Below, piece by piece: positions 127-46,205 of a stretch of 64,000 nt of DNA. Source of the stretch: Halopseudomonas xiamenensis (GTDB lineage: Bacteria; Pseudomonadota; Gammaproteobacteria; Pseudomonadales; Pseudomonadaceae); NCBI RefSeq assembly GCF_014219065.1, contig NZ_JACLGO010000008.1, positions 1 to 64,000 of the forward strand, given 5' to 3'. Numbering within the stretch: position 1 is the first letter of the stretch; every line of letters begins with the position of its first letter. The notes below the pieces were generated by a model. It made no database searches. It worked only from the letters and a program-made list of their open reading frames with translations, and was not told where the DNA came from. The position numbers and the translations under genes were made by a program.

Positions 127-168
127 AGCCGTTTGGACGATGTTTGCCAGGCGGCGCTGGAACAACAT
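127..168 (+). promoter_or_regulatory. Weak operator/promoter site A upstream of the YCF48-MMPL-LuxR1 unit
   Basis: AGCCGTTTGGAC (127-138) keeps only the right half of the GTCC-N4-GGAC palindrome, but it is followed directly by GATG (139-142). After exactly 24 bases comes CAACAT (163-168), matching the weak xAnnnT form of the -10. This is the most degenerate of the set and is supported mainly by the shared spacing. It lies between the intron tail and the first gene. Confidence 0.35.
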
Positions 169-274
169 CAGGTCACTCTCTGTGCTGCCTTCTATGTCCC
201 GGGCATGAACAGTTGCAGATTCATAAAAACAACAGGTGGCCTGCTACAGGGCACCCACAGGGTGGAATTGCGCC

Positions 275-1243
275 ATGAGCAAATTGATCAGCTACTCCTT
301 CTGTCTTGTCGTTGCGGCGTTGGTGGCCTATGCCTTCTCGCCACGCCATGAGCTTGCTGACCGGCAGGTGCAGCTCAACCTGGCGCGCCTGCAGATCAAT
401 GATCTGGTCCAGTTCGACGACCGGGTCATTGCGGTCGGTGAGCGCGGCACCATTATCGTCAGCGATGACAAGGGTGATTCCTGGCGTCAGACCCATGGTG
501 ACGCGGAACTGCCGGTGACGCTGACCGGCGTGAACTGGCTGGGTGGCAGCGAACTGCTGGCGGTCGGTCACGATGCGGTGCTGATGCACAGCGCCGACGC
601 CGGTGAAACCTGGGAAGTGCTGATGCAGGACGACGAGCTGGGCGAGCCGCTGCTGGGCACCTGGAGCGCCGATGGGCAAAGGATTTTCGCCTACGGCAGC
701 TTCGGCAAGTTCCTCAGCTCTGCGGACCAGGGCCGCAGTTGGCAGGAGCGCGAGCTGGATATCCATGGTGAGCATCTCAATGACCTGGATGGTGACGGCG
801 AGCGGTTGCAGATCATGGTTGGCGAGATGGGCCTGGTGCTGCGCAGCGAGGACCATGGTGAAAGCTGGGAACGTATCGAGCCGTTCTATCGTGGCTCGCT
901 GTTCGGTGTGGCGTACATGGGCAATGCGGTCTGGGTTACCTATGGCATGCGCGGCCACGTGTTCGTCAGCAAGGATGATGGAATGAACTGGACACAGGTC
1001 GATATTGCCCATCGCCTGCCGTTGTATGGCCATGCCAGGGATGATTCAGGCCTGGTGATCGTGGGTACCGGTGGTGCCTACGTCAACCTTTCGAACGAGG
1101 GAGAGCTTACCGATTCCGGCTACCTCAATGGGCTGGGAACCTTGACCTCGGCAGTGGTCCTGCCTGACGGCGACCTGTTTGTCGCCGGCCAGAGCGGCCT
1201 GCTGCAACAGGATCGCGGTTATCTCGCAGTCATTGGTCAATAA
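275..1243 (+). CDS. YCF48-type beta-propeller protein (Asp-box/BNR repeats)
   Basis: The 322-residue product starts with a single hydrophobic segment (about residues 5-22), so it is probably exported or membrane-anchored. The rest is about six repeats carrying the Asp-box pattern D-x-G-x-(S/T)-W, for example DKGDSW, DAGETW, DQGRSW, DHGESW and DDGMNW, which is typical of photosystem-assembly factor YCF48-like and sialidase-like propellers. I chose the ATG at 275 because GGTGGA lies 8 bases upstream; the upstream ATG at 236 has no such site. The MMPL gene follows after 10 bases, and this pairing is common in catabolic clusters for hydrophobic substrates. The propeller is inferred to be a periplasmic partner of that transporter; its exact role is unknown. 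Confidence 0.8.
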   Translation: MSKLISYSFCLVVAALVAYAFSPRHELADRQVQLNLARLQINDLVQFDDRVIAVGERGTIIVSDDKGDSWRQTHGDAELPVTLTGVNWLGGSELLAVGHDAVLMHSADAGETWEVLMQDDELGEPLLGTWSADGQRIFAYGSFGKFLSSADQGRSWQERELDIHGEHLNDLDGDGERLQIMVGEMGLVLRSEDHGESWERIEPFYRGSLFGVAYMGNAVWVTYGMRGHVFVSKDDGMNWTQVDIAHRLPLYGHARDDSGLVIVGTGGAYVNLSNEGELTDSGYLNGLGTLTSAVVLPDGDLFVAGQSGLLQQDRGYLAVIGQ

Positions 1244-1253
1244 GGGGGATAAC

Positions 1254-3653
1254 ATGGCCACGCAAAATCGTCGTTGGGTGGATCGTTGGGTCGAGGCCAT
1301 GGCCGACGGCCTGCTGAACAACCGCAGGTTGTTCCTGTCGATCTTCATCCTGATCACCCTGGGGCTGGGCTACAGCGCCACGCAGATCAAGCTGGACCCG
1401 GGTTTCAACAAGCAGATACCCATCACCCACCCGTACATGGAGAACTACCTCCACTACAGTGATACCTTCAGTGGCGCCAATACCATTCTGGTGAGCGTCA
1501 ACTGGCGTGGTGAAGGGGACATCTATAACGCTGAATTCCTCGACGTGCTGCGTCAAGTCACCGACGAGGTGTTCTTCATCCCCGGTGTACGCCGTGCCAG
1601 TGTGCGTTCGCTGTTCACTCCGGACGTGCGCTACGTGGAGATATCCGAGGATGGCTTCGTCGGTGATGTGGTGATCCCGCCGCACTTTTCCGGTACACCC
1701 GAAGACCTCGATCAGGTGCGCAGCAATGCCGCCCGTTCCGGTGAGATCGGCCGCCTGGTGGCCAACGACCTCACCGCTGCCATCGTCAATGCCGAGCTGC
1801 AGGAGTTCAACCCGGAAACCGGCGAGCGGATTTCCTACACCGAGATCGCCGCCCAGCTGGAAGACATTCGCACGCGCTTCGAGAACGACAACATCCAGAT
1901 CAATATCGTCGGCTTCTCCAAGCTGACCGGAGATGTCATTGACGGGCTGTTCATGGTGATGGGCTTCTTCGTCATCGCCTTCGTCATCACCGCGCTGATG
2001 CTGTGGTTCTACTCGCGCTCGATGGTGCAGACCGTGGTGGCGTTGCTGGTGGCGCTGGTGCCGGTGATCTGGCTGCTTGGGGTGCTGCCACTGATCGGCA
2101 TGGGTATCGACCCGATGTCGATCCTGGTGCCGTTCCTGATCTTTTCCATCGGCGTGTCCCATGCGGTGCAGATGACCAATGCCTGGAAGCAGGACATCCT
2201 CGATGGGCATAACGCCTTCGAGGCGGCGCATGTGTCCTTCTGCAAGATCTTCATCCCCGGCGCACTGGCGCTGCTGATGAACGCGCTGGGGTTCGGGGTG
2301 ATCATGCTGATCGATATTCCGATCGTGCATGAACTGGGTATCACCGCCTGTATTGGTGGCCTGCTGATGATCGCCACCAACAAGATGATGCTGCCGATCA
2401 TTCTCTCCTACCTGCGGCTGGACAAGCGAGCCTACGAGCAGCGTGCGCGTACCGCCGATGGCAAGCACCGCCTGTGGTGGAGCCTGTCGATACTGGCCAC
2501 GCCCAAGGCGGCGCTGGGTGTGTTCGCCATCAGCCTGGTGCTGCTGGTGGCCGGTTCCTGGAAGAGCCGCGACCTGATCGTCGGCGATGTGGGTGTCGGC
2601 GCGCCGGAGCTGCGCGAGACCTCACGCTACAACCAGGACAATGCGCAGATTTCCCGCAGCTATTCGATCGGCCTGGACGTGCTGTCGGTGTACATGGAAA
2701 CCGATATCGAGGAGGCCTGCCTGGATGCCGACGTGATGCGTGCGGTCGAGGAACTGGACTTCCATGCGCGCAGTATCGAGGGTGTCAACTCGGTACACAG
2801 CGTGGCCGGGATGGGCAAGGTGTCGATTGCCGGTAATAACGAAGGCAACCCGCGCTGGGCGGCCATTCCGGGCTCGTCCCGTGGCCTGATGCCGGGCTCG
2901 CGCGCCTACTCCAGTTCCCATGGGCTGGTGGTCGATGGCTGCCAGACCATGCAGGTACTGTTGTTCCTGACTGACCATGAGGGGGACACCGTGGCCCGGG
3001 TGACCGACCAGGTCGAGCGCATCATCGCCAATATCGATGAGCCCAAGGTCGAGTTCAAGATGGCCGGTGGCAACATTGGCGTGATGGCCGCCTCCAACGA
3101 AGCGGTACAGAAGGCCGAGGTGCAGATGCACGGCTCGCTGCTGCTGGCGGTGGCGCTGTTCTGCTGGCTGACCTTCCGTTCCATACGGGCGGTGCTGTGC
3201 CTGCTGATCCCGCTGGCGATCGTCGCCACCCTGTGCAACGCGGTGATGGCGGTGTTCGGTATCGGCCTCAAGGTAGCGACCCTGCCGGTGATGGCGCTGG
3301 GCGTGGGTGTGGGTGTGGACTACGGCATCTACCTGTACGAGCGCATGCAACATGAGCTGGCCATGGGCAAGGATGTGCGCACCTCCTTCTACGAAGCCAT
3401 GTGCCAGCGCGGTACCGCAGCACTGTTCACCGCCTTCACCATGTCGGTGGGGGTCGGCACCTGGGTGTTCGCGCCGCTGAAGTTCCAGGCGGACATGGGT
3501 GTGCTGCTGGCGTTCATGTTCCTGGTCAACGTGTTCGGTGCGATCTTCCTGCTGCCGGGACTGGCGGCCTGGTTCAATCGCAGCAAGCCGCTGGTACGGG
3601 TGCAGTCGGCGGATGCGCCGGCTGCTGGCCTGGCACCTGCCGGCAGCCATTGA
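1254..3653 (+). CDS. MMPL/RND-superfamily transporter
   Basis: The 799-residue protein has the two-fold RND/MMPL layout. A first membrane helix lies near residues 26-46, followed by a periplasmic domain, then a membrane block near 225-400, a second periplasmic domain, and a second block from about 620. That block includes the helix motif GVGVGVDYGIYLYE, which carries the family's conserved Asp-Tyr. The ATG at 1254 follows GGGGGAT, and the longer reading frame from 1179 overlaps the preceding gene and was rejected. It sits in an apparent operon with the YCF48-type gene (10 bases) and the LuxR gene (7 bases). A role in moving a hydrophobic substrate such as a steroid across the envelope is inferred; the direction is not visible. 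Confidence 0.85.
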   Translation: MATQNRRWVDRWVEAMADGLLNNRRLFLSIFILITLGLGYSATQIKLDPGFNKQIPITHPYMENYLHYSDTFSGANTILVSVNWRGEGDIYNAEFLDVLRQVTDEVFFIPGVRRASVRSLFTPDVRYVEISEDGFVGDVVIPPHFSGTPEDLDQVRSNAARSGEIGRLVANDLTAAIVNAELQEFNPETGERISYTEIAAQLEDIRTRFENDNIQINIVGFSKLTGDVIDGLFMVMGFFVIAFVITALMLWFYSRSMVQTVVALLVALVPVIWLLGVLPLIGMGIDPMSILVPFLIFSIGVSHAVQMTNAWKQDILDGHNAFEAAHVSFCKIFIPGALALLMNALGFGVIMLIDIPIVHELGITACIGGLLMIATNKMMLPIILSYLRLDKRAYEQRARTADGKHRLWWSLSILATPKAALGVFAISLVLLVAGSWKSRDLIVGDVGVGAPELRETSRYNQDNAQISRSYSIGLDVLSVYMETDIEEACLDADVMRAVEELDFHARSIEGVNSVHSVAGMGKVSIAGNNEGNPRWAAIPGSSRGLMPGSRAYSSSHGLVVDGCQTMQVLLFLTDHEGDTVARVTDQVERIIANIDEPKVEFKMAGGNIGVMAASNEAVQKAEVQMHGSLLLAVALFCWLTFRSIRAVLCLLIPLAIVATLCNAVMAVFGIGLKVATLPVMALGVGVGVDYGIYLYERMQHELAMGKDVRTSFYEAMCQRGTAALFTAFTMSVGVGTWVFAPLKFQADMGVLLAFMFLVNVFGAIFLLPGLAAWFNRSKPLVRVQSADAPAAGLAPAGSH

Positions 3654-3660
3654 CAAGCCG

Positions 3661-4812
3661 ATGAACGCTGACCGGCGCCGTCTGCAAATGGAAGCCTCAT
3701 CCTTCGACCTGCTGTTGGGTGAGCTGTATGATGCGGCCATGGACGACCATAGCTGGAGCCGCTACCTGACGCGGCTCCAGCAGTTGTTCAAGGCCAACTA
3801 CGTGACCCTGATCCTGCGTGCGCCGCAGGACTCGGACAAGGGCCTGATGCTGGTCATCGGTGATATCGAAGGGCAGGGCACCATCTCCTACATCACCTAC
3901 CCGGGATCGGAAACGCCCTTCGTCAACTGCCCGGTCAACCAGGTATTCACCGTCACCGACCTGATGAGCCTGGACAGCTGGCGCGAGTCGGACTACTACC
4001 TGAGCTACTGCATCAAGCAGAACGTGTTCCATGTGATGGGGGTGGACCTGGTGCCACCCAGCGGCGGCGTGTTCCGCTTCCGGGTTACCCGGCCGCAGGG
4101 TCAGCCGGACTTCTCGGCGGCCGATCGGGCGCTGTGCGGCGCACTGATTCCGCATATGGGCCGGGCACTGCATATCCACAGCCTGCTCGGACACAAGCAT
4201 TCCCTGAGTACGCTGTACGCCCAGGCGATGGGACGCTTGTCGATCGCCACCATAATCCTCGATGGCAACGGTCAACTGCTGGAAACCAATCAGGTGGCCA
4301 GGGAAATGCTGGCCGCCGGGGATGGTCTGAAGATCATCGGCGGCCGCCTGGAGGCCAGCTATCCGGGGGACAACAAGCGCCTGTACAAGTCCATCCGGTC
4401 GGCCGCCGGCAGTGCCGCCGAAGGCCGGGTAGCGCTGGCCGAGGCGCTGTCGATCGCGCGTCCTTCCGGGCAGGTCAGCCTCGGTATCGTGGTCGAGCCG
4501 GTGCCACAACAGGACTGGGATGAAGGTGAGAGCCAGGCGGCGGTGGTGATCTACTGCCGTGATGCGGTCGGCCAGTCGCTGTTGAGCACCGCGATCACTC
4601 GCCAGGTGTTCGGCTTCACTCCATCGGAGTCGGCCCTGGCGATGGAGCTGGCCAATGGCCTGTCGCTGGAGGAGGCGGCCAGTTCGCTGGGTATCCGGCG
4701 CAATACCGCGCGGGCACACCTGCGGGCGATCTTCTCCAAGACCGGAGTGCGTCGCCAGACCGAGTTGGTGCGCCTGATTCTCAATAGTGTGGTAACCCTG
4801 GGGCAGCCATGA
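3661..4812 (+). CDS. LuxR-type transcriptional regulator, paralogue 1
   Basis: The 383-residue protein has an N-terminal sensor region (about 1-280) and a C-terminal LuxR/NarL-type helix-turn-helix (about 318-380) with the segment RRNTARAHLRAIFSKTGVRR. No receiver domain is present, so it probably senses a small ligand directly. It starts at the ATG 7 bases after the MMPL stop; the ATG at 3688 is an alternative. The N-terminal block GELYDAAMDDHSW...ANYVTLILR recurs in modified form in the two regulators immediately downstream. Comamonas testosteroni controls testosterone degradation with a LuxR-type protein, TeiR, so an inducer role for steroid genes is plausible but inferred. It is the most diverged of the three copies. 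Confidence 0.85.
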   Translation: MNADRRRLQMEASSFDLLLGELYDAAMDDHSWSRYLTRLQQLFKANYVTLILRAPQDSDKGLMLVIGDIEGQGTISYITYPGSETPFVNCPVNQVFTVTDLMSLDSWRESDYYLSYCIKQNVFHVMGVDLVPPSGGVFRFRVTRPQGQPDFSAADRALCGALIPHMGRALHIHSLLGHKHSLSTLYAQAMGRLSIATIILDGNGQLLETNQVAREMLAAGDGLKIIGGRLEASYPGDNKRLYKSIRSAAGSAAEGRVALAEALSIARPSGQVSLGIVVEPVPQQDWDEGESQAAVVIYCRDAVGQSLLSTAITRQVFGFTPSESALAMELANGLSLEEAASSLGIRRNTARAHLRAIFSKTGVRRQTELVRLILNSVVTLGQP

Positions 4813-4969
4813 TCAGGGTAAAGGATTGTTTCAAATCAGATTGGCGTATGGATGCACAAGGCGCTGGCGCAAGGGGCTGGTACTGAGCAATATAGAGAGC
4901 CAGCCTGGGCAGCGCCTGATAACGATAACAACCCAGCTTCACTGAAGCCAAAGGCATGAGGTTGCAATA

Positions 4970-6211
4970 ATGATGACAACAAGCACAACAACCGATTTTC
5001 CTTCGAGCCTGCAGCTGTCATTGGATGACTACGACCGCATCATTGGCCACATCCATGATGGTGGCCTGGAGACCGACCAACTGTCGGTCGCCCTGGAAGA
5101 GCTGCGCTGTCTGTTCCAAGCCAACTACGTGACCCTGATCCTGCGCATCCCCGGCGTCCAGGACGTCGGCCTGATGCTGGTCGCCGGTGACCTGGAGGGC
5201 AGTGGCAAGGTCACCTACTTCCGCTACCTGCACAGCGACACGCCCTTCTCCAACATGCCGGCGGACCGGGTGTTCACGGTGGACGATGTGATGACCTTCC
5301 AGGAGTGGGAAAGCAGCACCTACTACCGCGACTACAGCAGGGACAACGATGTCTACCATGTCATGGGTGCGGACATCTCCACCGCCGACGCCGGTGTGCT
5401 GCGCTTTCGCATTACCCGCGGCCAGCACCAGCCAGCCTTCACCGAACAGGACAAGACGCTGTGCTCGCGGCTGCTGCCGCATCTGCGGCGCAGCCTGCAC
5501 GTGCACAACCTGCTGGGACGCAGCGAGTCGCTGGGCAACCTGTACGCCGAGGCGGTCAATCGACTGTCGGTGGCGACCCTGGTGCTGGACGAGTCGGGTG
5601 GCGTGTTGCAGCTCAACGACGTGGCCCGGGAGCTGCTCGGCCAGGCCGACGGCCTCAAGCTGGTCGGCTCGCGGCTGGAGGCCAGCTACCCCAGTGATAA
5701 CCGCGAATTGCACAAGCTGATCCGTGATGCGGTGGAGTCCAAGGATGCGCCGCAGCCACGGGAGTCCCGTGAGGCGTTGTCGGTCACCCGGCCTTCGGGC
5801 GAGGTCAGCCTGGGCGTGGTGGTCGAGCCGATTCCCGGCGCTGAGTGGGCCGAGGGCCGGGGTCAGCCGGCGGTGATGATGTATATCCGCGATGCGGTGG
5901 GCAAGTCCCAGGTGGATAACCGGGTGGCCAAGGAACTGTTCAACTTCACCCCGGCGGAAACCCAGCTGGCACTGCAACTGGCCAACGGCCTGTCGCTGGA
6001 GGAGGCTGCGGAGAACCTGGGCATCATGCGCAATACCGCGCGAGCGCACCTGCGGGCGATCTTCTCCAAGACCGGGGTGCGGCGCCAGGCGGAACTGGTG
6101 CGGGTGATGCTCAACAGCGTGGTATCGCTGGGCCGCGGCAATATCATGCCGCTGGGCAGTCGTGCGGCGGTCATCCCCCGGCCTGAACTGCGTTCGCTGC
6201 ACTGCCGCTGA
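4970..6211 (+). CDS. LuxR-type transcriptional regulator, paralogue 2
   Basis: The 413-residue protein has the same architecture as the gene before it: a ligand-sensing N-terminal half and a C-terminal helix-turn-helix (IMRNTARAHLRAIFSKTGVR). It starts at ATG 4970 with GAGG 9 bases upstream; a second ATG follows directly. It is very similar to paralogue 3: from about residue 165 to the end of the helix-turn-helix the two proteins are nearly identical (shared stretch HLRRSLHVHNLLGRSESLGN, for example), whereas the first 150 residues differ more. This suggests a recent tandem duplication with diverging sensor domains. A 157-base gap separates it from paralogue 1; it may have its own promoter there, but I found no GTCC-N4-GGAC site. 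Confidence 0.85.
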   Translation: MMTTSTTTDFPSSLQLSLDDYDRIIGHIHDGGLETDQLSVALEELRCLFQANYVTLILRIPGVQDVGLMLVAGDLEGSGKVTYFRYLHSDTPFSNMPADRVFTVDDVMTFQEWESSTYYRDYSRDNDVYHVMGADISTADAGVLRFRITRGQHQPAFTEQDKTLCSRLLPHLRRSLHVHNLLGRSESLGNLYAEAVNRLSVATLVLDESGGVLQLNDVARELLGQADGLKLVGSRLEASYPSDNRELHKLIRDAVESKDAPQPRESREALSVTRPSGEVSLGVVVEPIPGAEWAEGRGQPAVMMYIRDAVGKSQVDNRVAKELFNFTPAETQLALQLANGLSLEEAAENLGIMRNTARAHLRAIFSKTGVRRQAELVRVMLNSVVSLGRGNIMPLGSRAAVIPRPELRSLHCR

Positions 6212-6247
6212 GAACCAACAGCCAGCCAAAGACACGAGGTGCAACAG

Positions 6248-7489
6248 ATGACAATAACAATGACCTCTGCGGTTACGGGGCTTCCCAGCAGTCAGCCACT
6301 GTCGCTGGATGACTACGATCGCATCATCGGCCAGATACAGGATGGCGCGCTGGAGACCGGGCAACTGGCGCTGGCGCTGGATGAACTGCGCGGCCTGTTC
6401 CAGGCCAACTACGTGACTCTGATCCTGCGCGTTCCCAGCGCCGAGAGCATGGGTATCACCCTGATCTCCGGGCAGTCGGAGTGGGCTGGCAAGCTGGCCT
6501 ATTTCCGTGATTATCGCTGGGATGCACCGCTGGGAAACATGCCGCCCGACCAGGTATACAGCATGGATCAGCTGATGAGCCGCGAGGAGTGGGAAGGCAG
6601 TACCTATTATCGCGACTACAGCCAACCCAACGACGTCTATCACATCATGGGCGCCAACATCGCCACCACCGATGCCGGCGTACTGGGCTTTCGCATCACC
6701 CGCAGCCCGCGCCAGCCGGCGTTCTGCGAGCAGGACCGGGCGTTGTGCATGCGGCTGCTGCCGCATCTGCGGCGCAGCCTGCACGTGCACAACCTGCTGG
6801 GGCGCAGCGAGTCGCTGGGCAACCTGTATGCCGAGGCGGTCAATCGTCTGTCGGTAGCGAGCCTGGTGCTCGACGAGTCAGGCAGTGTATTGCAACTCAA
6901 CGATGTGGCCCGGGAGCTGCTCGCGCAGGCCGACGGTCTCAAGCTGGTTGGCTCGCGGCTGGAGGCCAGCTACCCCAGTGATAACCGCGAATTGCACAAG
7001 CTGATCCGTGATGCGGTGGAGTCCAAGCAGATACCGCAGCCACGGGAAACCCGTGAAGCGCTGTCGGTCGCGCGGCCGTCGGGTGAGGTCAGCCTGGGCG
7101 TGGTAGTCGAGCCGATAGCGGCTGCCGAGTGGGCCGAAGGACATGGCCAGCCAGCGGTGATGCTGTATATCCGTGACGCGGTGGGCAAGTCCCAGGTGGA
7201 TAATCGGGTGGCCAGGGAGTTGTTCAACTTCACTCCGGCGGAAACCGCACTGGCACTGCAACTGGCCAATGGCCTGTCGCTGGAGGAGGCCGCCGAGGAG
7301 CTGGGTATCATGCGCAACACCGCCCGGGCGCATCTGCGGGCGATCTTCTCCAAGACCGGGGTGCGCCGCCAGGCCGAGCTGGTGCGAGTGATGCTCAACA
7401 GCGTCGGCTCGCTGGGGCGTGGTGCCAGCATCAGCACGCTGGGCAAGCCAGTCCATGTGATCAGGCGGCCTTTGTTGCGGACTGTCTGA
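6248..7489 (+). CDS. LuxR-type transcriptional regulator, paralogue 3
   Basis: The 413-residue third copy has the same fold and an identical recognition-helix region to paralogue 2. I chose the ATG at 6248 because GAGG then lies 8 bases upstream, exactly as in paralogue 2; an in-frame GTG at 6239 overlaps that ribosome site. It follows paralogue 2 after 36 bases and is probably co-transcribed with it. Sensor-domain differences from paralogue 2 cluster at residues 60-110 and in the segment around the aromatic-rich YYRDYS motif, which fits a change in ligand preference with an unchanged DNA target. Whether the three form homo- or heterodimers cannot be told from sequence. Confidence 0.85.
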   Translation: MTITMTSAVTGLPSSQPLSLDDYDRIIGQIQDGALETGQLALALDELRGLFQANYVTLILRVPSAESMGITLISGQSEWAGKLAYFRDYRWDAPLGNMPPDQVYSMDQLMSREEWEGSTYYRDYSQPNDVYHIMGANIATTDAGVLGFRITRSPRQPAFCEQDRALCMRLLPHLRRSLHVHNLLGRSESLGNLYAEAVNRLSVASLVLDESGSVLQLNDVARELLAQADGLKLVGSRLEASYPSDNRELHKLIRDAVESKQIPQPRETREALSVARPSGEVSLGVVVEPIAAAEWAEGHGQPAVMLYIRDAVGKSQVDNRVARELFNFTPAETALALQLANGLSLEEAAEELGIMRNTARAHLRAIFSKTGVRRQAELVRVMLNSVGSLGRGASISTLGKPVHVIRRPLLRTV

Positions 7490-7507
7490 GCTGCCCTGCA
7501 GCTTCTA

Positions 7508-7549
7508 GTCTGCGCAGACGATGAGTCTTGCGCAGCACCCTCCGATACT
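7508..7549 (+). promoter_or_regulatory. Operator/promoter site B upstream of the 7588 SDR gene
   Basis: GTCTGCGCAGAC (7508-7519) is a perfect 12-bp palindrome, followed by GATGAG. After exactly 24 bases comes GATACT (7544-7549), a good -10 element. The start codon of the SDR lies 38 bases further on. No standard TTGACA -35 is present, and GATGAG occupies that position, which suggests dependence on an activator bound at about -42.5. Confidence 0.7.
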
Positions 7550-7587
7550 GCTCCGACGAACAGCCTCAGGCAATCCAGGAGCAGAAC

Positions 7588-8430
7588 ATGAGCAAGGTGG
7601 TATTGGTTACCGGAGCCAGCCGTGGCATCGGGCGGGAAACCGCGCTGGCCTTCGCCCGGGCCGGATTCGATGTGGCTATCAGCGCACGGACGCTGGAGGA
7701 GGGCCAGCAGCACGAGCATGCCCTGACCGATGCCGACGGCAAGCCGCTACCGGGCAGTCTGGCCTCGGTCGCCGCCGAGATCAGGGCGCTGGGTCGCCAG
7801 GCCTGGTGCATACCCATGGACCTGCTGGATGCCGCCTCGGTACAGGCTGCGGCCGAACAGTTGCTGCGCGAGGCTGGCCGTATCGATGTACTGGTCAATA
7901 ACGCGGTGTATCAAGGCAGCGATCTGAACGCCACCTTCCTGCAACTGACCCCCGAGACGCTGGAGCGCATGTATCGCGGCTATGTACTGGCACCGGTGCT
8001 GCTGACCCAGCGCCTGTTGCCGGCGATGCTGGAGCGGGGCGAGGGGGTGGTCATCAACGTCACCTCCGGTGCCGGCGAGAGTAATCCACCGGTAGCGGCC
8101 GACAAGGGTGGCTGGGGTTATGCCTACGGGGCCGGCAAGGCGGCGGTATCGCGCCTGTCGGGTGTGCTCAAGGCGGAGTTGGGTGGTCGTGGCCTGCGCA
8201 GCTATACGGTCAATCCCGGGGTGGTCACCACCGATGCACTGAAAGCCACCATCGGCGAGGCCGGGGTGCGGGCACTGGGGGCCGGTTCGGCGCCGCCACC
8301 GGTACCGGCCGCAGTGATCTGCTGGCTGGCGCTGAGCGATGTGCAGGGCCTGCACCAGAAGCGCACGATACACGCGCAACCATTTGCTCTGGAGCACGAC
8401 ATCATTGCGGATTGGAGTGCGGTCGAGTAG
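7588..8430 (+). CDS. Short-chain dehydrogenase/reductase (SDR)
   Basis: The 280-residue classical SDR has the cofactor motif TGASRGIG near residues 8-15, NNAV in place of the usual NNAG, a serine in the NVTSGAG strand and the catalytic Tyr-x3-Lys pair in YGAGK. The ATG at 7588 has AGGAG 7 bases upstream. Its own operator/promoter (7508-7549) links it to the rest of the catabolic genes. It is longer than most steroid dehydrogenases because of an insert after the second strand (about residues 40-60). Oxidation or reduction of a hydroxyl or keto group on a steroid intermediate is likely, but the position acted on cannot be inferred. Confidence 0.75.
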   Translation: MSKVVLVTGASRGIGRETALAFARAGFDVAISARTLEEGQQHEHALTDADGKPLPGSLASVAAEIRALGRQAWCIPMDLLDAASVQAAAEQLLREAGRIDVLVNNAVYQGSDLNATFLQLTPETLERMYRGYVLAPVLLTQRLLPAMLERGEGVVINVTSGAGESNPPVAADKGGWGYAYGAGKAAVSRLSGVLKAELGGRGLRSYTVNPGVVTTDALKATIGEAGVRALGAGSAPPPVPAAVICWLALSDVQGLHQKRTIHAQPFALEHDIIADWSAVE

Positions 8431-8452
8431 GTGAAGCTACCTAAATAAACAA

Positions 8453-8485: not shown

Positions 8486-8489
8486 GCTG

Positions 8490-9167: not shown

Positions 9168-9200
9168 GGCTTTAATCCGAGTGCTTGTTCATCTTTTGTC

Positions 9201-10222: not shown

Positions 10223-10227
10223 GGCGC

Positions 10228-11953: not shown

Positions 11954-11973
11954 CGCTGATCATCAGACCCCTA

Positions 11974-12015
11974 GTCCAAGTGAGGGATGTAGGGCTGCCA
12001 GCATAGCGCGAAGAT
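11974..12015 (+). promoter_or_regulatory. Weak operator/promoter site C upstream of kshA
   Basis: GTCCAAGTGAGG (11974-11985) keeps the left GTCC and the following GATGTAG (11986-11992) but has lost the right GGAC arm. After 24 bases comes GAAGAT (12010-12015), a poor -10. The kshA start codon is 120 bases further on. The rest of the interval 11954-12134 shows no gene. Confidence 0.4.
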
Positions 12016-12134
12016 CCCCTATATCGGATGTGGTTTTCCGACAGGTTCATGCCGTCGCAGTGCAAGGGCGCAGACATAGTGGCTGGACCGAGCCGTGCAG
12101 AAAACTATAACAACGCTCAGTGAGGATCAGAATC

Positions 12135-13175
12135 ATGAATCAGATGATCGAAATCAAACCGGTGGCGGAGACTGCGGAATACCGCTATGCCCGCGGCTGG
12201 CACTGCCTTGGCGAGGCCCAGAGCTATCGCGACGGCAAGTTGCATACCCTGAACATCTTCGGCACCCGGCTGCTGGCCTTCGTCGGCAAGAATGACGAGA
12301 TCGCAGTGCTCGACGCCTACTGCCCGCACATGGGCGCGGACCTGTCCCAGGGTGAGCTGGTCGATGGCAAGGTGGTCTGTCCGTTCCACCATTGGGCCTT
12401 CGATGCCAGTGGCCGCTGCGCCGAGATCCCCTATTGCAAGCGTATCCCGCCCAAGGCCAAGACCCGCAAGTGGCTGACCTGCGAGGTCAACCGCCTGTTG
12501 TTCGTCTGGCACAACCCTGAAGGTCTGCCGCCGGCCGAAGGCGTCGAGATCCCCTACCTGCCGGAAATCGACAGCGACGAGTGGGACGATGACTGGCACC
12601 TGGACCTGATGATCATCGACACTCACCCTCGCGAGTTGGTGGACAACCTGGTCGATGCCCAGCATTTCGGCCCGGTGCATGGCGCGCCGACCAAGTACTT
12701 CCGCAATACCTTCCAGGGGCATATCGGTACCCAGGAGTTCCATGGCGATTCCGAGCGCCTGGGTGGTGATCTGGTGGCCGAGTCGGCCTACTACGGTCCG
12801 GCCACCCACTTCACGCGGATGCGTGCCGAGTATGACGGGCTGGTGGTGGAGTCGATCCTGCTCAACTGCCATGTGCCGATTGGCCCGCGCCAGTTCGAGC
12901 TGCGTTTTGGCGTGCTGGTCAAGAAGGTTCCCGGCTGGACCGAGGAGCAGAACAGGGCGCTGGCGCTGGAGTACGTGCAGAACAACCGCACCTCGTTCTA
13001 CCAGGACGTGGATATCTGGAGCACCAAGCGGCCGGTGGACAACCCGGTGCTGGCCGAAGGGGATGGTCCCATCTACCAGTTGCGCGAGTGGTACGGCCAG
13101 TTCTACATCGACGAGGCAGAGGTGCCGCAGGAGATGAAGGAGTTCCGCGAGTTCATCGTGGTTGATGAGAAGTAA
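12135..13175 (+). CDS. kshA: Rieske oxygenase, 3-ketosteroid 9-alpha-hydroxylase oxygenase-like
   Basis: The 346-residue ring-hydroxylating oxygenase has a Rieske [2Fe-2S] site formed by Cys63-x-His65 and Cys82-x2-His85 (CPHM and CPFHHW). The mononuclear iron site is built on NLVDAQHFGPVHG, with His177 and His182. The single-subunit length and these motif forms fit KshA-type steroid hydroxylases, which hydroxylate C9 of androstenediones and so open ring B together with KstD. The ATG at 12135 has GAGGA 8 bases upstream. Its likely electron donor is the KshB-like reductase at 32588, 20 kb away; splitting them is unusual but not unique. It stands alone, closed by a terminator at 13195. A related Rieske enzyme acting on another hydrophobic substrate cannot be excluded. 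Confidence 0.75.
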   Translation: MNQMIEIKPVAETAEYRYARGWHCLGEAQSYRDGKLHTLNIFGTRLLAFVGKNDEIAVLDAYCPHMGADLSQGELVDGKVVCPFHHWAFDASGRCAEIPYCKRIPPKAKTRKWLTCEVNRLLFVWHNPEGLPPAEGVEIPYLPEIDSDEWDDDWHLDLMIIDTHPRELVDNLVDAQHFGPVHGAPTKYFRNTFQGHIGTQEFHGDSERLGGDLVAESAYYGPATHFTRMRAEYDGLVVESILLNCHVPIGPRQFELRFGVLVKKVPGWTEEQNRALALEYVQNNRTSFYQDVDIWSTKRPVDNPVLAEGDGPIYQLREWYGQFYIDEAEVPQEMKEFREFIVVDEK

Positions 13176-13224: not shown

Positions 13225-13229
13225 CTGCC

Positions 13230-13271
13230 GTCCAAACGGACGATGTGACTGCCCGGCGGCACCTCTACTCT
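13230..13271 (+). promoter_or_regulatory. Operator/promoter site D upstream of the Cache-EthD-amidase-hsdA unit
   Basis: GTCCAAACGGAC (13230-13241) has perfect GTCC/GGAC arms, followed by GATGTG. After exactly 24 bases comes TACTCT (13266-13271). The start codon of the Cache-domain gene is 33 bases further on. Confidence 0.75.
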
Positions 13272-13304
13272 GGGGCTTACCCTGTGACGGATCGGGAGTT
13301 GCCG

Positions 13305-14171
13305 ATGATAACAATGAAAAAGTGGCTGGCCGGCGGTCTGCTGGTATCAGTTCTGTTCTGTAGCGCGCTGGTTGCCGCTACTGCCATCACCGCCAAGAGC
13401 GATGAAGAACGGGTCCGGGCCCTGCTGGAGCGGGCGGTGGCCTATTACCAGGAGCAGGGCGAGCGGGCCTTCGCCGCCTTCAGCCGGGTAGGCCAGTTTT
13501 CCGAGGACGACCTGTACGTATTCGTGGTTGATCGCAATGGCACCATGCTGGCCAGTGGCGGTCCCTCGCGCAAGCTGATCGGGCGGGATATATCACCGCT
13601 ACTGGATGATCAACTGCAGCTGGGCTTCGAGGCGGTGCTGGCGCAACCGCAGACCGGCAGCATCCAGCAGGGCGAGTATCGCTGGACCAACTGGCGGCAG
13701 GGCCGGGTTGAGCGCAAGAAGGCTTTCTATCAGATCCTTGATGCCCACATCATTGCTGTCGGCTACTACCTGCCACGTGCCACGCCGGCTGATGCGCGCA
13801 ATATGCTGGAGCGGGTGGTCGCCGCGCTGGGCGATGATGCCGAGCAGACCATAGGGCTGATAAACCAGCTGGATTCGCAGTTCTATCAGGACGACACCTA
13901 TCCGGTGATCATCGATAGCGATACCGGGCGTTTCGTTGCCCATGGCTACAATCATGGCCTGGTCGGCAGTCGTTTCGACACTATCGATGATAATGCCGGT
14001 GAGCCTTTGGGAGCACCGCTGCTCAAACAGATGGAAAACCGCGATACCGGTGAATTCCAGTATCAATGGCGCAACCCAGCTACCCAGCAGGTGGAAAGCA
14101 AGACAGCCTTCATCCAGCGGGTGGGCCGTTATCTGGTGCTGGTGGGCTGGTATAGCGATACTGTGCAATGA
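13305..14171 (+). CDS. Periplasmic/membrane-anchored Cache-domain protein
   Basis: The 288-residue protein has an N-terminal hydrophobic segment (about residues 5-25) and two tandem Cache-like units. Each has the strand pattern seen in small-molecule sensors: YVFVVDRNGTMLASGG in the first and TYPVIIDSDTGRFVAHG in the second, each ending in a K-x-AF-(Y/I)Q pattern. No kinase, HAMP or methyl-accepting domain follows, so it is a stand-alone ligand-binding module. The ATG at 13305 has GGGAG 6 bases upstream. It leads an operon with EthD, amidase and hsdA genes and carries the shared operator. Presenting a substrate to a membrane partner is a guess. Confidence 0.65.
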   Translation: MITMKKWLAGGLLVSVLFCSALVAATAITAKSDEERVRALLERAVAYYQEQGERAFAAFSRVGQFSEDDLYVFVVDRNGTMLASGGPSRKLIGRDISPLLDDQLQLGFEAVLAQPQTGSIQQGEYRWTNWRQGRVERKKAFYQILDAHIIAVGYYLPRATPADARNMLERVVAALGDDAEQTIGLINQLDSQFYQDDTYPVIIDSDTGRFVAHGYNHGLVGSRFDTIDDNAGEPLGAPLLKQMENRDTGEFQYQWRNPATQQVESKTAFIQRVGRYLVLVGWYSDTVQ

Positions 14172-25314: not shown

Positions 25315-25357
25315 AGTATTCGCCGGGGGGCAAGGGTGGGTCATCGTCTTAATGGAC
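25315..25357 (-). promoter_or_regulatory. Operator/promoter site E for the hsaB-hdhA-tesEFG operon
   Basis: Read on the minus strand, GTCCATTAAGAC (25357-25346) is followed by GATGAC. The -10-like AATACT (25320-25315) follows after 25 bases, one more than in the strict sites. The hsaB-like start codon is 33 bases beyond it. It faces away from site F, 22 bases to the right. Confidence 0.65.
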
Positions 25358-25378
25358 TAACGCGCGACGGGGCTACTG

Positions 25379-25420
25379 GTCCGAATGGACGAGGTGCGCG
25401 GCGGGATGCTTATCTATCGT
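25379..25420 (+). promoter_or_regulatory. Operator/promoter site F for the aldehyde dehydrogenase gene
   Basis: GTCCGAATGGAC (25379-25390) has perfect arms and is followed by GAGGTG (a GATG variant). After exactly 24 bases comes TATCGT (25415-25420). The ALDH start codon lies 78 bases downstream. Sites E and F form a divergent pair between two catabolic units. Confidence 0.7.
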
Positions 25421-25498
25421 GCGGACATCAGAAAAAAGCAATGGCAATGCCCGCCAGCGGTATTGATTCCGGCAAACAAGAACAAAGGAGAACGCGGC

Positions 25499-28688: not shown

Positions 28689-28729
28689 GTCGACTTTCCA
28701 GTCTCTTTTCACTCCTGACCTGAACCATA

Positions 28730-28771
28730 GTCCGCTTTGACGATGAGTGCAGGGGAGTCACTCCAGATAAT
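28730..28771 (+). promoter_or_regulatory. Operator/promoter site G upstream of the hsaA-kstD-kshB operon
   Basis: GTCCGCTTTGAC (28730-28741) is followed by GATGAG. After exactly 24 bases comes GATAAT (28766-28771), the best -10 match in the set. The hsaA-like start codon is 51 bases further on. Confidence 0.75.
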
Positions 28772-28822: not shown

Positions 28823-30013
28823 ATGGGTGTCACTCGCGAACGAAGTGAAAAAGAACGCGAATTGCTGGAAAGCGCGCGGCAGATGATTCCGGCGCTGAAA
28901 GCGCGAGCTGAACAGGCCGATCGGGACCAGAAGGTGCCGGTCGAGACCGTCGCCGATATGCAGGAAGCAGGACTGTTCCGGGCCATGCAGCCGAAACGCT
29001 TTGGCGGTTTCGAGCTGGATCCGCGCGGATTCTTCGATATTCAGATGGCCCTGGCCGAGGGTTGCATGTCCACTGCCTGGATCTACGGCGTGATGGGGGT
29101 ACACCCATGGCAGCTGGCACGTTATCCGTTGCAGGCGCAGGAAGACGTCTGGGGCGAGAACCCCGACACCCTGGTCGGCTCCACCTATATGCCGGTGGCC
29201 AAGGTGACACCGGTGGAAGGCGGTTATCGCATCAGCGGTCGCTGGGGCTTCTCCAGCGGCAGTGAGCATTGCAGCTGGACCCTGCTGGGCGGCATCATTC
29301 CGCCGGACGCCAATGGTGAGGGCGTGGAACACGGCACCTTCCTGGTGCCGGCCAGCGACTACCGCATCGAGCGTAACTGGGACGTGCTGGGCCTGCGCGG
29401 CACCGGCAGTCACGATATCGTGGTCGAGGACGCCTTCGTGCCCGCCCACCGCGTACAGCGTACCAACAATACCAGCATGGAGGCCACGCCGGGACGGCTG
29501 GTCAACACCAACCCACTGTATGGCATTCCCTTCGCCCAGGTCTTCACCCGGGCGGTATCCAGTTCCTGCCTGGGGGCGCTGCAGGGAGCGATCAACGAGT
29601 TCCGTGACAACGCCAAGCGGCATATCGGCAAGCATGGTGGCAAGACTGCCGAAGACCCCCTGGCGCAGGAAGTGGTGGCCGATGCGACCCTGACCCTGGA
29701 CCAGCTCAAACTGGTGCTGGAGCGCAATTTCGCGCACCTGATGGATCTGGCGCAGCGCGACGAGTTCCCGGATGAGGAAACCCGCCTGCTGTACCGCTAC
29801 CAGTCGGCCTACGTGACCAACATCTGCGCCGACAAGGCCGACCAGTTGCTGCGCTGCATGGCGGCGTCGGGGCTGTACAACACCAACCCGGTGGCGCGGA
29901 TCTTCCGTGACCTGCACCAGGCCCGTGGCCATATCTCCAATAACGTGGCGGCCTTCGCCCGTGCCTATGGTGCCGTGCAGCTGGGCCTGCCCAACCCCGA
30001 TCCCTACGTCTGA
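28823..30013 (+). CDS. Flavin-dependent monooxygenase, oxygenase component (HsaA/HPAH-C2-like)
   Basis: The 396-residue protein has the acyl-CoA dehydrogenase fold with the features of group D two-component monooxygenases. These include an N-terminal helical start with DMQEAGLFRAMQPKRFGG, a central SGRWGFSSGSEHCSW strand pattern and LRGTGSHDIVVEDAFVPAHR, and it lacks the usual acyl-CoA catalytic glutamate motif. HsaA hydroxylates the phenolic ring A of 3-HSA, giving the catechol that is then cleaved. The expected reductase is the fused flavin reductase encoded at 24268. GGAGG lies 8 bases before ATG 28823. Known homologues also act on hydroxyphenylacetate, so the steroid substrate rests on context (kstD and kshB are the next genes). 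Confidence 0.75.
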   Translation: MGVTRERSEKERELLESARQMIPALKARAEQADRDQKVPVETVADMQEAGLFRAMQPKRFGGFELDPRGFFDIQMALAEGCMSTAWIYGVMGVHPWQLARYPLQAQEDVWGENPDTLVGSTYMPVAKVTPVEGGYRISGRWGFSSGSEHCSWTLLGGIIPPDANGEGVEHGTFLVPASDYRIERNWDVLGLRGTGSHDIVVEDAFVPAHRVQRTNNTSMEATPGRLVNTNPLYGIPFAQVFTRAVSSSCLGALQGAINEFRDNAKRHIGKHGGKTAEDPLAQEVVADATLTLDQLKLVLERNFAHLMDLAQRDEFPDEETRLLYRYQSAYVTNICADKADQLLRCMAASGLYNTNPVARIFRDLHQARGHISNNVAAFARAYGAVQLGLPNPDPYV

Positions 30014-38388: not shown

Positions 38389-38424
38389 GCCCGGCTGGCC
38401 GGTTGGCCAGCATTGCAAGTCCAC

Positions 38425-38463
38425 AAAAAATCCCGCTTCGAACTGCTCGAAGCGGGATTTTTT
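38425..38463. terminator. Bidirectional intrinsic terminator
   Basis: TCCCGCTTCGA (38431-38441) is perfectly complementary to TCGAAGCGGGA (38447-38457), flanked by A6 on the left and T6 on the right. It ends both the DUF1329 gene and the leftward SDR operon. Confidence 0.95.
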
Positions 38464-38481
38464 CATGCATGCATGGGGGCG

Positions 38482-39231: not shown

Positions 39232-39251
39232 GGATCACCTCTGTGTGGTTG

Positions 39252-40037
39252 TCAGTTGCCGTTGAATTGCGGCCGGCGCTTCTCGATGAACGCCTGCATG
39301 CCTTCCTTCTGGTCGCGGGAGGCGAACAGCAGGGCGTTGGCCTTGCGTTCCAGTGCCAATGCAGCTTCCAGCGAGGCGTCCATGCCGGCGAGGATCACTT
39401 CCTTGATCTGCTCGGCTGCCAGGGGCGGCATGCCGGCGATCAGGGTGGCTTGTTCCAGAGCAGACGCCTGCACCTGTTCATCTTCCACCAGCTCACTGAC
39501 CAGTCCGGCGATATGAGCTTCCTCGGCGCTGATAGGACGTCCGGTCAACGCCATCTGCATGGCCTTGGCCTTGCCTACGGCGCGCACCAGCCGCTGGGTG
39601 CCACCGATGCCGGGCATGATGCCAATGCGAATTTCCGGTTGGGAAAAGCGCGCGCTGCGCCCGGCAATGATGATGTCGGCGTGCATCGCCAACTCGCAGC
39701 CACCGCCGTAGGCATAGCCGCAGACCGCGGCGATCACCGGCTTGGGACAGTGCTGGATGGGTGCCCAGGTGCGCTCGGTATGCCGCTGATAGATGTCGAT
39801 GGCGCCCACCCCGGCCATGCTGGAGATATCACCGCCGGCGGCGAACACCTTGTCGCCACCGGTGAGAATGATGCAGCGGACCTGCGGGTCGGCGGCCAGT
39901 CTGGTGAAGTGCTCGGCCAGCAATGCCTGCAACTCGAGGCTGAGCGCGTTGGTTACCGTCGGGCGGTTCAGGGTGAGCCTGGCGACGCCCGGCGCGGGCA
40001 GGTCGAGCAGGACGCAGGAAGAGTCGGATGAAGACAT
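39252..40037 (-). CDS. Enoyl-CoA hydratase/isomerase (crotonase family)
   Basis: The 261-residue crotonase has the oxyanion-hole segments FAAGGDISSM and CGYAYGGGCELAMHAD, and both catalytic glutamates are visible (GGGCE and QPEIRIGIMPG). It adds water across enoyl-CoA, likely of a side-chain or ring-derived acyl-CoA. The start could be ATG 40037 or ATG 40052; neither has a strong ribosome site, and I chose the first because the family usually begins close to the VLLDLP strand. It is the first gene of a leftward pair and has an operator/-10 set (40107/40082) shared with the rightward operon. Confidence 0.85.
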   Translation of the reverse strand: MSSSDSSCVLLDLPAPGVARLTLNRPTVTNALSLELQALLAEHFTRLAADPQVRCIILTGGDKVFAAGGDISSMAGVGAIDIYQRHTERTWAPIQHCPKPVIAAVCGYAYGGGCELAMHADIIIAGRSARFSQPEIRIGIMPGIGGTQRLVRAVGKAKAMQMALTGRPISAEEAHIAGLVSELVEDEQVQASALEQATLIAGMPPLAAEQIKEVILAGMDASLEAALALERKANALLFASRDQKEGMQAFIEKRRPQFNGN

Positions 40038-40076
40038 GGTGAGCCTATGCATATGAATGAGCGGGGATCGGGATCG

Positions 40077-40148
40077 ATTGTTGGGCCGGTACCGGTGTGC
40101 TTCATCGTCCGTTCAGACGAAGTGGTGGTGAGGGTGAGCCAATAGAGT
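40077..40148. promoter_or_regulatory. Bidirectional operator/promoter site H
   Basis: GTCCGTTCAGAC (40107-40118) serves both directions. Rightwards, after 24 bases, lies TAGAGT (40143-40148). Leftwards, the complement GTCTGAACGGAC is followed by GATGAAG (CATC at 40103-40106), and after 24 bases by AACAAT (40082-40077). One palindrome thus sits at the same distance from two divergent -10 elements. Confidence 0.75.
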
Positions 40149-40178
40149 GACGGCATGACATCAAATGAGGGGTGGTGT

Positions 40179-40964
40179 ATGCAGTCTCCCAGCCAACTGG
40201 ATTACCGCGGCAAGGTGGTGCTCGTGACGGGCGGCACCAAGGGTATCGGTGCCGGTATCGCCAGTGCCTATCTTGCTGCCGGGGCGCAGGTGTTCGTCTG
40301 CGGTCGCCAGCAGCCGGAGCGGTTGCCCGAGGCCGATGGGCGCCAGGCGCAGTTTCTGGCCGCCGATGTGCGTGACGTGGAAGCCACCGCGGTGGTATTC
40401 GAGCGTATCCGTGAGCTGACCGGTCGGCTCGATGTACTGGTCAACAATGCCGGTGGCAGCCCAAATGCCGATGCCGCCACCGCCTCGCCGCGTTTCAGCG
40501 AGAGCATCATCCGCCTGAATCTGCTTGCGCCGCTGAACATTGCCCAGCAGGCCAACCAGTTGATGCAGCAGCAGACCGAGGGCGGGGTGATCATCTTCAT
40601 TGGCTCGGTCAGCGCATCGCGTCCGTCGCCCGGCACCGCCGCCTATGGTGCGGCCAAGGCCGGCATCGTGGCGCTGGCCAGCTCGCTGGCGGTGGAGTGG
40701 GGGCCGAAGGTCAGGGTGATGAGTATCAGCCCCGGGCTGATCCGTACCGAACAATCCCATCTGCATTATGGCGACGAGGCCGGTATTGCCGCGGTCGGTG
40801 CGGGTATTCCCGCCGGCCGCATGGGCGAGCCGGAGGATATCGCCAATGCCTGTCTGTATGCCGCCTCGCCGATGGCGGCCTATTTCAGTGGTACCAACCT
40901 GCTGTTGCACGGTGGCGGTGAACGGCCGGCCTTTCTGGCTGCCTCCACCGCCGGCAAGGCGTGA
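40179..40964 (+). CDS. SDR-family oxidoreductase
   Basis: The 261-residue classical SDR has TGGTKGIG near residues 17-24, NNAGG near 92-96, a Ser in IGSVSA and YGAAK as the catalytic Tyr-x3-Lys. ATG 40179 has GAGGGG about 7 bases upstream; the in-frame ATG at 40155 has none. Its stop overlaps the in-frame GTG of the next gene. It is the first gene of the side-chain operon with chsH2-, chsH1- and ltp2-like genes. It probably oxidises a hydroxyl on the steroid nucleus or side chain; the substrate is unknown. Confidence 0.75.
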   Translation: MQSPSQLDYRGKVVLVTGGTKGIGAGIASAYLAAGAQVFVCGRQQPERLPEADGRQAQFLAADVRDVEATAVVFERIRELTGRLDVLVNNAGGSPNADAATASPRFSESIIRLNLLAPLNIAQQANQLMQQQTEGGVIIFIGSVSASRPSPGTAAYGAAKAGIVALASSLAVEWGPKVRVMSISPGLIRTEQSHLHYGDEAGIAAVGAGIPAGRMGEPEDIANACLYAASPMAAYFSGTNLLLHGGGERPAFLAASTAGKA

Positions 40965-41020
40965 CTCAACCCGACGCTGCCAATGAGGACAGCGTCCAAC
41001 GGAACGATCAGGAGACGAAC

Positions 41021-42001: not shown

Positions 42002-42014
42002 CAGGAGGCGTGCC

Positions 42015-43542: not shown

Positions 43543-43555
43543 CGGAGAAGCAAAG

Positions 43556-44734: not shown

Positions 44735-44744
44735 GGAGCAGCGT

Positions 44745-45911: not shown

Positions 45912-46120
45912 CGTGAAAGTCGCGCAGCGACGCCATCTGATGACCTTCTCCCGTCCTGGGAGGCGGCGCCCGCTCCCGGCGGGCCAGCCGCATTCACCAC
46001 GTCCCTGTGGATCAAGGTGGCGCGCAGCGTCGGAAGAGGGAGCGATCACGCCGCTGCGGACTTTCATTATTCGGGGTGCCGGTGGCGGCATGATCGTTGA
46101 GCTGGCCAAGACCGTGATAG

Positions 46121-46144
46121 AACCGGTGGTGACCCACCGGTTTT
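46121..46144 (+). terminator. Terminator of the side-chain operon
   Basis: AACCGGTGG (46121-46129) pairs perfectly with CCACCGGTT (46134-46142) around TGAC, followed by only a short T run (TTTTC overlapping the stem end). It is 210 bases after the last dehydrogenase stop. Confidence 0.65.
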
Positions 46145-46163
46145 CACGAGCTTTCAGGTTGTC

Positions 46164-46205
46164 GTCCGAGCAGACGATGTGGCCGGCGCCCCCAGGTCTT
46201 AAAAA
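46164..46205 (+). promoter_or_regulatory. Operator/promoter site I upstream of the SDR-SnoaL unit
   Basis: GTCCGAGCAGAC (46164-46175) is followed by GATGTG. After exactly 24 bases comes TAAAAA (46200-46205). The SDR start codon lies 31 bases further on. Confidence 0.7.

Follow-up and report, generated by a model that had tools for sequence, protein, structure and literature searches.

The left-hand 46 kb of a 64,000-nucleotide stretch of the Halopseudomonas xiamenensis genome (positions 1 to 64,000 of contig NZ_JACLGO010000008.1, here called the window) carry catabolic genes ahead of which an inverted repeat recurs, and the locus raises the question of whether these repeats define one regulon and, if so, which protein reads them. 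A first-pass annotation of the window had described ten such sites as GTCC-N4-GGAC followed by GATG, 24 bases and the hexamer TAnnnT, six of them conforming strictly, and had taken them for the operators of a steroid regulon. We find a looser form of this pattern at all ten sites, the consensus as first given being too strict, and the motif, its spacing, its conservation and its co-occurrence within the family with one group of LuxR-type proteins all emerge from computation. With good probability, the sites serve a steroid-catabolism regulon as its operators and core promoters and are read by TeiR-like LuxR activators; their clustering in steroid islands, their conservation ahead of orthologous operons and, within the bacterial family, their tracking of one LuxR family from genome to genome all support the regulon.

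Operator sequence and promoter architecture

There are just two literal occurrences of GTCC-N4-GGAC in the window, at 13230-13241 and 25379-25390, the second of which is followed by GAGG and not by GATG, and just one of the six supposedly strict sites, that at 13228, fits every element of the pattern. In all six the quoted hexamer follows after exactly 24 bases. TAnnnT describes the hexamer in three of them (TACTCT, TATCGT and TAGAGT) and not in the other three, while the more permissive NANNNT fits five, the site at 46162 having TAAAAA. A better consensus is T(A/C)GTC(C/T)-N4-(A/G)GACGATG, that is TMGTCYNNNNRGACGATG (M = A/C), with a -10-like NANNNT 24 or 25 bases beyond the palindrome, the commonest letters of which are GATACT among 40 such hexamers from other genera. 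The fourth base of the palindrome (C or T) and the ninth (A or G) divide approximately 65/35 over 65 sites, and these splits led us to reject the strict GTCC-N4-GGAC as the consensus.

The distance to the hexamer was determined on 67 sites, which comprise the exact matches in 55 named loci (all from one LuxR-family scan) and ten sites of the H. xiamenensis genome itself, with near-duplicates removed. When NANNNT was scanned from +15 to +35, its best position was +24 in 37 of these sites and +25 in 24, with the remaining six having it elsewhere or not at all. If the hexamer is the -10 element, the centre of the palindrome lies at -42.5 for a 24-base gap, as the first-pass annotation had implied, or at -43.5 for a 25-base gap. 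On the same assumption the geometry is that of a class II promoter, in which a site centred at about -41.5 to -43.5 overlaps the place of the -35 box and lies ahead of the -10.

The GATG element is also real, but a more fitting description makes it the outermost portion of an extended inverted repeat, CATCGTCY-N4-RGACGATG; an arm that carries it marks the transcribed side. When GATG was left out of the search pattern, the 55 named loci gave 96 palindromes, 70 of which have GATG on one or both sides, as compared with 3 of 543 for four control palindromes together. Among 81 non-redundant palindromes that have GATG on one arm or on both, a hexamer is present 24 or 25 bases beyond 78 of 83 GATG arms but only 13 of 79 other arms (970 of 13,836 for random positions), indicating that GATG marks the promoter-proximal half and gives the site its direction. 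Hexamers are found on both sides of the window palindrome at 40103-40122 and of sites in two of the named loci (L112 and L113). A second, symmetric operator class, TAGTCY-N4-RGACTA, was considered and rejected, as its 11 places are the same kind of site read on the other strand.

Sites in the window and in the rest of the genome

Within the window TAGTCYNNNNRGACGATG has two exact, three one-mismatch and six two-mismatch matches, and nine of these 11 are sites of the first-pass annotation; its site at 11985 has three mismatches. The two-mismatch matches at 11891 (forward strand) and 45500 (reverse strand) lie inside open reading frames (ORFs) and were not counted as operators. AGTCYNNNNRGACGATG, with two mismatches allowed, gives 12 matches where 4.9 are expected, a number reached by one of 100 shuffles, and GTCCNNNNGGACGATG gives 25 where 8.8 are expected, which no shuffle out of 100 reached. 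Two matrices, one for the operator and one for the -10, were derived from 41 sites of other genera, seven of the closest named loci being left out; scored together, they identify 11 window sites of at least 12 bits, compared with four in 40 dinucleotide shuffles together; nine of the ten first-pass sites are among them, 11985 being the one that is not. A chance origin is ruled out by the shuffles and this matrix, together with the permuted and reversed patterns described below. A matrix site at 28726 on the reverse strand shares the palindrome at 28728 and was not counted as a separate operator. A 17.1-bit operator and hexamer match on the forward strand (962-1010) lies inside the YCF48-like gene at 236-1243 and was likewise not counted; it is probably fortuitous, since four such scores arose in the 40 shuffles.

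The core half of the window (48-64 kb), which had been thought free of sites, contains none at two or fewer mismatches or at 9 bits or more, but it does have six three-mismatch matches. In the whole 4.28 Mb genome there are 11 exact matches to MGTCYNNNNRGACGATG, five in the window, five on contig C18 and one on contig C66, and ten of the 11 fall in two steroid islands. The proposed regulon is wider than the catabolic island of the window, with a second steroid island on C18. NANNNT follows at 24 or 25 bases in eight of the ten island matches (those at 44812 and 46163 lack it). Outside the islands there are 38 one-mismatch matches, and of the 14 whose context was examined none has the hexamer.

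Conservation ahead of orthologous operons

The first-pass annotation had suggested a scan of the genome and its relatives, and its outcome favours a regulon. The named LuxR loci contain 71 exact operator matches, spread over 39 of the 55, whereas 40 permuted patterns averaged 0.375 matches, and none had more than 5, in the same loci. The genera with exact matches include Pseudomonas, Halopseudomonas, Marinobacter, Thauera, Zoogloea and Parazoarcus.

Footprinting ahead of orthologues (with a cut-off of 55 %) shows that individual sites are retained. The site preceding the YCF48-like gene, which leads to the LuxR genes, recurs as TAAGCC[A/G]TTTGGACGATG with a hexamer at 24 or 25 bases in seven of eight relatives, and the eighth has a three-mismatch form with a hexamer. 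At KshA, which the 11985 site precedes, all 19 orthologous loci have an operator with one to three mismatches and a hexamer. For the acyl-CoA dehydrogenase at 28823 the operator is present in 15 and the hexamer in 13 of 16 orthologous loci, and the site is kept in three of three for the sCache unit, two of two for the enoyl-CoA hydratase unit and one of one for the divergent short-chain dehydrogenase/reductase (SDR) unit. The two weakest window sites are thus conserved before orthologous operons, and we regard them as the most telling evidence of conservation. Units 1, 3 and 7 each deviate from the consensus in a way of their own that recurs from locus to locus, suggesting that operator strengths are tuned.

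An independent test was offered by Vibrio alfacsensis, in which three plasmids, two originating from farmed fish, encode a LuxR homologue that is 49 % identical. In one, NZ_CP140104 (41 kb examined), sites with no or one mismatch and a hexamer precede an ETF-beta gene and an acyl-CoA dehydrogenase gene and lie on both sides of a divergent enoyl-CoA hydratase/SDR pair that is arranged as in the window; two further two-mismatch matches there lack a hexamer. This plasmid (L171, NZ_CP140104.1), from a farmed turbot gut, carries steroid side-chain-like genes together with the LuxR homologue and operators, and a toxin-antitoxin pair adjoins them. A Burkholderia arboris record (25 kb examined) has two degenerate sites with a hexamer.

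Co-occurrence of the operator with LuxR homologues

Among 198 genomes of the family, 51 are LuxR-positive at an E-value of 1e-30 or better. Loosely defined operators number 12 per genome (median) in these and 2 (range 0-11) in the LuxR-negative genomes, but since the loose pattern has a background in GC-rich genomes the stricter full architecture, TAGTCYNNNNRGACGATG-N20/21-NANNNT, was taken for the main test. It occurs in 53 of the 198 genomes, 50 of which belong to the 51 that are LuxR-positive and 3 to the 147 that are not, with 270 sites in all against two for the pattern read backwards. The exception, G181, has KshA, a LuxR gene reduced to its helix-turn-helix (HTH) end and no full match, and its cluster (L168) looks decayed. 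Apart from G057 (discussed below), two genomes, G104 (83 % complete) and G111 (one site), have the full architecture with only a distant LuxR match. KshA (E-value 1e-60) is found in 50 genomes of the family, 49 of which are LuxR-positive.

In a phylum-wide sample of 398 genomes the full architecture is present in 11. The five with at least four matches (G000, G024, G490, G275 and G228) all encode a LuxR homologue with an E-value of 6.5e-59 or better, and the six with a single match have no LuxR homologue at 1e-30. The pattern alone pointed to G275 and G490, which proved to carry LuxR homologues, and in G275 the sites examined fall within about 100 kb of a homologue.

The LuxR-type proteins

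Three LuxR paralogues, the proposed readers of the operator, are encoded on the forward strand of the window at 3679-4812 (paralogue 1; ORF from 3499), 4970-6211 (paralogue 2) and 6239-7489 (paralogue 3), and a fourth on contig C18 at 58575-59837. All three window proteins match the GerE HTH family (23.8, 25.3 and 24.4 bits; cut-off 23.5), paralogues 2 and 3 also having PAS matches, while the C18 protein falls just under the cut-off with 22.1 bits. In Pfam searches (E-value 0.001) none of the four has the autoinducer-binding domain of the quorum-sensing LuxR proteins or the receiver domain of the NarL/FixJ type. Within the tandem set (3679-7489) paralogues 2 and 3 are 78 % and paralogues 1 and 2 are 54 % identical, and the C18 copy is 61 % identical to paralogue 2; the set looks like a recent duplication, with ligands that are possibly different.

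Conservation is greatest in the DNA-binding domain. Over 73 LuxR homologues the mean identity is 81 % in the HTH, 61 % in the PAS region and 50 % in the N-terminal domain, and the six pairs of H. xiamenensis paralogues are 70-95 % identical in the HTH and 38-67 % in the N-terminal domain. A structure model of the 4970 protein (mean pLDDT 79, pTM 0.56) has an alpha-beta N-terminal domain, a PAS region and an HTH, and its Foldseek matches include GAF-containing phytochromes and phosphodiesterases, VqmA and EL222; whole-chain TM scores are low, and the label of the N-terminal domain as GAF-like is thus tentative. KshA_C and side-chain degradation families are encoded next to the LuxR genes, which places these in a steroid degradation cluster, and it is on domain type and this neighbourhood that we call the proteins TeiR-like.

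Proposed mode of action and alternatives

The activator that we propose is a TeiR-like LuxR protein composed of a predicted GAF-like domain, a PAS domain and a C-terminal GerE/LuxR HTH, in which a receiver domain was not found. As a dimer it would bind the inverted repeat T(A/C)GTCY-N4-RGACGATG, the centre of which lies 42.5 or 43.5 bases before the predicted start point. The promoter-proximal half of the repeat, GACGATG, would cover the place of the -35 box, and the activator, presumably in response to a steroid, would bring sigma-70 RNA polymerase to the GATACT-like -10 in the manner of class II activation. An arm that ends in GATG would promote transcription on its own side, and two such arms would serve divergent genes. 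With four paralogues that have diverged sensors and closely similar DNA-binding domains, one operator could receive several steroid signals. An operator of this kind, at 125-168, precedes the regulator genes themselves, which suggests positive feedback.

A number of observations weigh against this proposal. Sixteen of the 55 named loci have no exact operator match, and not all window sites are retained ahead of orthologues: that of unit 2 (SDR 7528) is exact in 3 of 35, is found with two mismatches and a -10 in two and with three mismatches and a -10 in one, and is absent from the rest (in L088, L103, L076 and L095 it is a different SDR that comes first after a site of this type). The site at 46162 (SDR 46237-47115, unit 9) was not found ahead of the single orthologue, and units 5 and 6, including the 25377 site, have no orthologue at the 55 % cut-off. 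The exact match on C66, outside the islands, has no hexamer at 24 or 25 bases and overlaps the 3' end of an opposite-strand ORF, although a margin rule labelled it intergenic. G057 (L169-L170) keeps sites and some of the operon layout and encodes only a distant LuxR-like protein with a different HTH, in a cluster that appears to be decaying. In the phylum sample (n=398), 9 of the 14 genomes that are LuxR-positive at 1e-30 have no TAGTC-type full match. Eight of these nine have weak LuxR homologues only (E-values between about 3e-44 and 2e-31). The other one, G509, encodes four strong LuxR homologues. Its exact loose matches, four in number, are uniformly CGTC-type; three of them share a replicon with three of its LuxR genes, and the two of these three that were examined both have the hexamer. 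There is no site in the 20 kb around the LuxR homologue of G228, which makes that case weak.

The recognition helix in G509 (L158-L162), probably a member of the Burkholderiaceae, is mostly (S/T)KNTAR as against (M/R)RNTAR in the window, and it is possible that protein and operator have changed together.

The LuxR-positive genomes of the family (51) and the KshA-positive ones (50) nearly coincide, 49 being common to both. Their co-occurrence therefore cannot by itself identify the binder, and the operator could be real yet bound by some other regulator, inherited with the steroid cluster or encoded elsewhere, with the LuxR proteins controlling something else. Such a protein would also account for the sites that G057 keeps without a close LuxR, and the phylum-level exceptions led us to give it slightly more weight; we nevertheless consider it improbable, since the four paralogues keep similar HTH domains while their sensors diverge and a position near -42.5 suits LuxR-type class II activators. 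The TetR protein encoded at 8490 in the window is a disfavoured candidate, since no ORF in the 55 named loci encodes a homologue of it (E-value 1e-5) although 39 of these loci have exact sites. The fixed distance from GACGATG to the hexamer might alternatively mean that the conserved block is a -35-like promoter part that an unusual sigma factor recognises unaided by an activator, but a palindrome with an N4 centre that is able to work in both directions, and a hexamer that resembles the sigma-70 -10, make this very improbable indeed.

Nor is it at all likely, though somewhat less far-fetched than the sigma factor, that some of the paralogues repress at the same operator and that the set is a balance of activators and a repressor. 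The similar HTH domains of the four proteins would allow this, and passages of two papers report a LuxR-type repressor of 3,17beta-HSD in Comamonas testosteroni (PMC6678751, PMC8700777); however, the fixed position near -42.5 favours activation, and TeiR/TesR is described in passages of the same papers as a positive regulator. Overall, we regard the conserved operator-promoter code of the steroid regulon as genuine and, on the sequence evidence, as best explained by a site for a TeiR-like LuxR activator.

Promoters and genes of the island

The Pfam families encoded in the window suggest a steroid, probably bile acid, degradation island. They include YCF48-like, MMPL transporter, the three LuxR-type proteins (two with a PAS match), SDRs, a Rieske oxygenase with a KshA C-terminal domain, amidase, HMGL-like aldolase, acetaldehyde dehydrogenase, flavin reductase, aldehyde dehydrogenase, acyl-CoA dehydrogenases, FAD_binding_2, DUF1302, DUF1329 and a ChsH2/acyl-CoA dehydrogenase/MaoC/thiolase-like set.

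The leftmost promoter (125-168, forward strand, 15.0 bits) consists of an operator at 125-142 (TAAGCC...GGACGATG, the left half off consensus) and a -10-like CAACAT at 163-168, and precedes the YCF48-like gene (236-1243), the MMPL transporter gene and the three LuxR genes. The operator at 7506-7523 with GATACT at 7544-7549 (forward, 36.8 bits) is an exact match with the full architecture, and downstream of it is the SDR gene at 7528-8430, the start of which is probably the ATG at 7588. A degenerate operator with three mismatches (11972-11989, forward) and a -10-like GAAGAT (12010-12015) lie before the KshA-type oxygenase gene at 12120-13175. The operator at 13228-13245 with TACTCT at 13266-13271 (forward, 16.4 bits) is followed by a gene for an sCache-domain protein (ORF 13245-14171, with its real start downstream).

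Near 25 kb two operators face opposite ways. That at 25342-25359, an exact match with the full architecture (reverse strand, 25315-25359 with its -10 AATACT at a 25-base gap, 35.2 bits), lies ahead of a putative leftward operon for flavin reductase, SDR, hydrolase, acetaldehyde dehydrogenase and aldolase (24268-25281 to 20706), and that at 25377-25394, with GAGG for GATG and TATCGT at 25415-25420 (forward, 18.4 bits), precedes an aldehyde dehydrogenase gene (ORF 25385-26929, start probably the ATG at 25499). Farther right, the operator at 28728-28745 and its -10 GATAAT at 28766-28771 (forward, 30.2 bits) lie before the acyl-CoA dehydrogenase gene at 28823-30013 and the genes that follow it. 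The two-way palindrome has an exact leftward operator (40103-40120, reverse strand, 29.1 bits) with AACAAT at 40077-40082, before the enoyl-CoA hydratase gene at 39252-40052, and a rightward half (40105-40122, GAAG arm, 20.7 bits) with TAGAGT at 40143-40148, downstream of which are the SDR gene at 40155-40964 and side-chain genes to 45911. The last operator (46162-46179, forward, exact, 20.5 bits) has the weak -10 TAAAAA at 46200-46205 and precedes the SDR gene at 46237-47115.

The segment 8490-11953, with genes for TetR, a TauD-like dioxygenase, a class II aldolase and a D-2-hydroxyacid dehydrogenase, has a third-position GC of 0.51-0.62 compared with about 0.7-0.85 around it, and it looks like an insertion because the flanking SDR and KshA genes adjoin (76-196 bases apart) in L067, L069, L107 and L102. 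The second cluster, on C18 from about 13 kb, encodes FMN oxidoreductases, an extradiol-dioxygenase-like protein, CoA-transferase, DUF1302/DUF1329, ChsH2/MaoC and acyl-CoA dehydrogenases.

Relation to known regulatory systems

The nearest described regulator is TeiR/TesR of C. testosteroni, a LuxR-type positive regulator in the steroid cluster that is needed for induction, according to passages of PMC6678751, PMC8700777 and PMC6895838; TeiR is described as a kinase with a polar membrane location in PMC6678751, and a kinase activity also figures in PMC8700777. The window proteins resemble it in being of the LuxR type and in their location in a steroid cluster, a likeness of domains and neighbourhood. 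The consulted parts of those three papers give no operator sequence for TeiR. KstR and KstR2 of actinobacteria also control steroid catabolism pathway-wide (PMC6678751, in part), but these are TetR-type repressors, homologues of which are said in part of a review to be absent from bile-acid-degrading Proteobacteria (PMC8399759). That review also describes regulation in Proteobacteria as largely unknown and refers to unpublished data on mutants in connection with TeiR-like genes of P. stutzeri Chol1 (PMC8399759). We found no description of the operator in the Creative Commons-licensed literature of PubMed Central, subscription literature lying mostly outside this scope, so that an earlier description is possible; the literal palindrome strings have no occurrence there among the matches listed.

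In class II activation by LuxR-type proteins the lux box lies near -42.5. The window system shares with it a palindrome near that position over the place of the -35 box, with a -10 downstream, but differs in its operator sequence, in the directional GATG arm and in having GAF-like and PAS sensor regions in place of the autoinducer-binding domain.

The chances seem to us about even that a single portable operator code serves steroid catabolism in Gamma- and Betaproteobacteria and on a Vibrio plasmid, in which paralogous LuxR sensors share one DNA specificity although their sensor domains diverge, each operon retains its particular deviations from the consensus and operator strength could thereby set the order of switching on, and one or two GATG arms encode direction. 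A searchable operator would yield a predicted regulon in many genera at once, complete with start points and target genes, would help to find steroid clusters in unannotated DNA, and provides components for steroid biosensors. It also becomes directly testable to which steroid or intermediate each of the paralogues responds, and steroid pathways gain a predicted common control switch that is open to experimental test.

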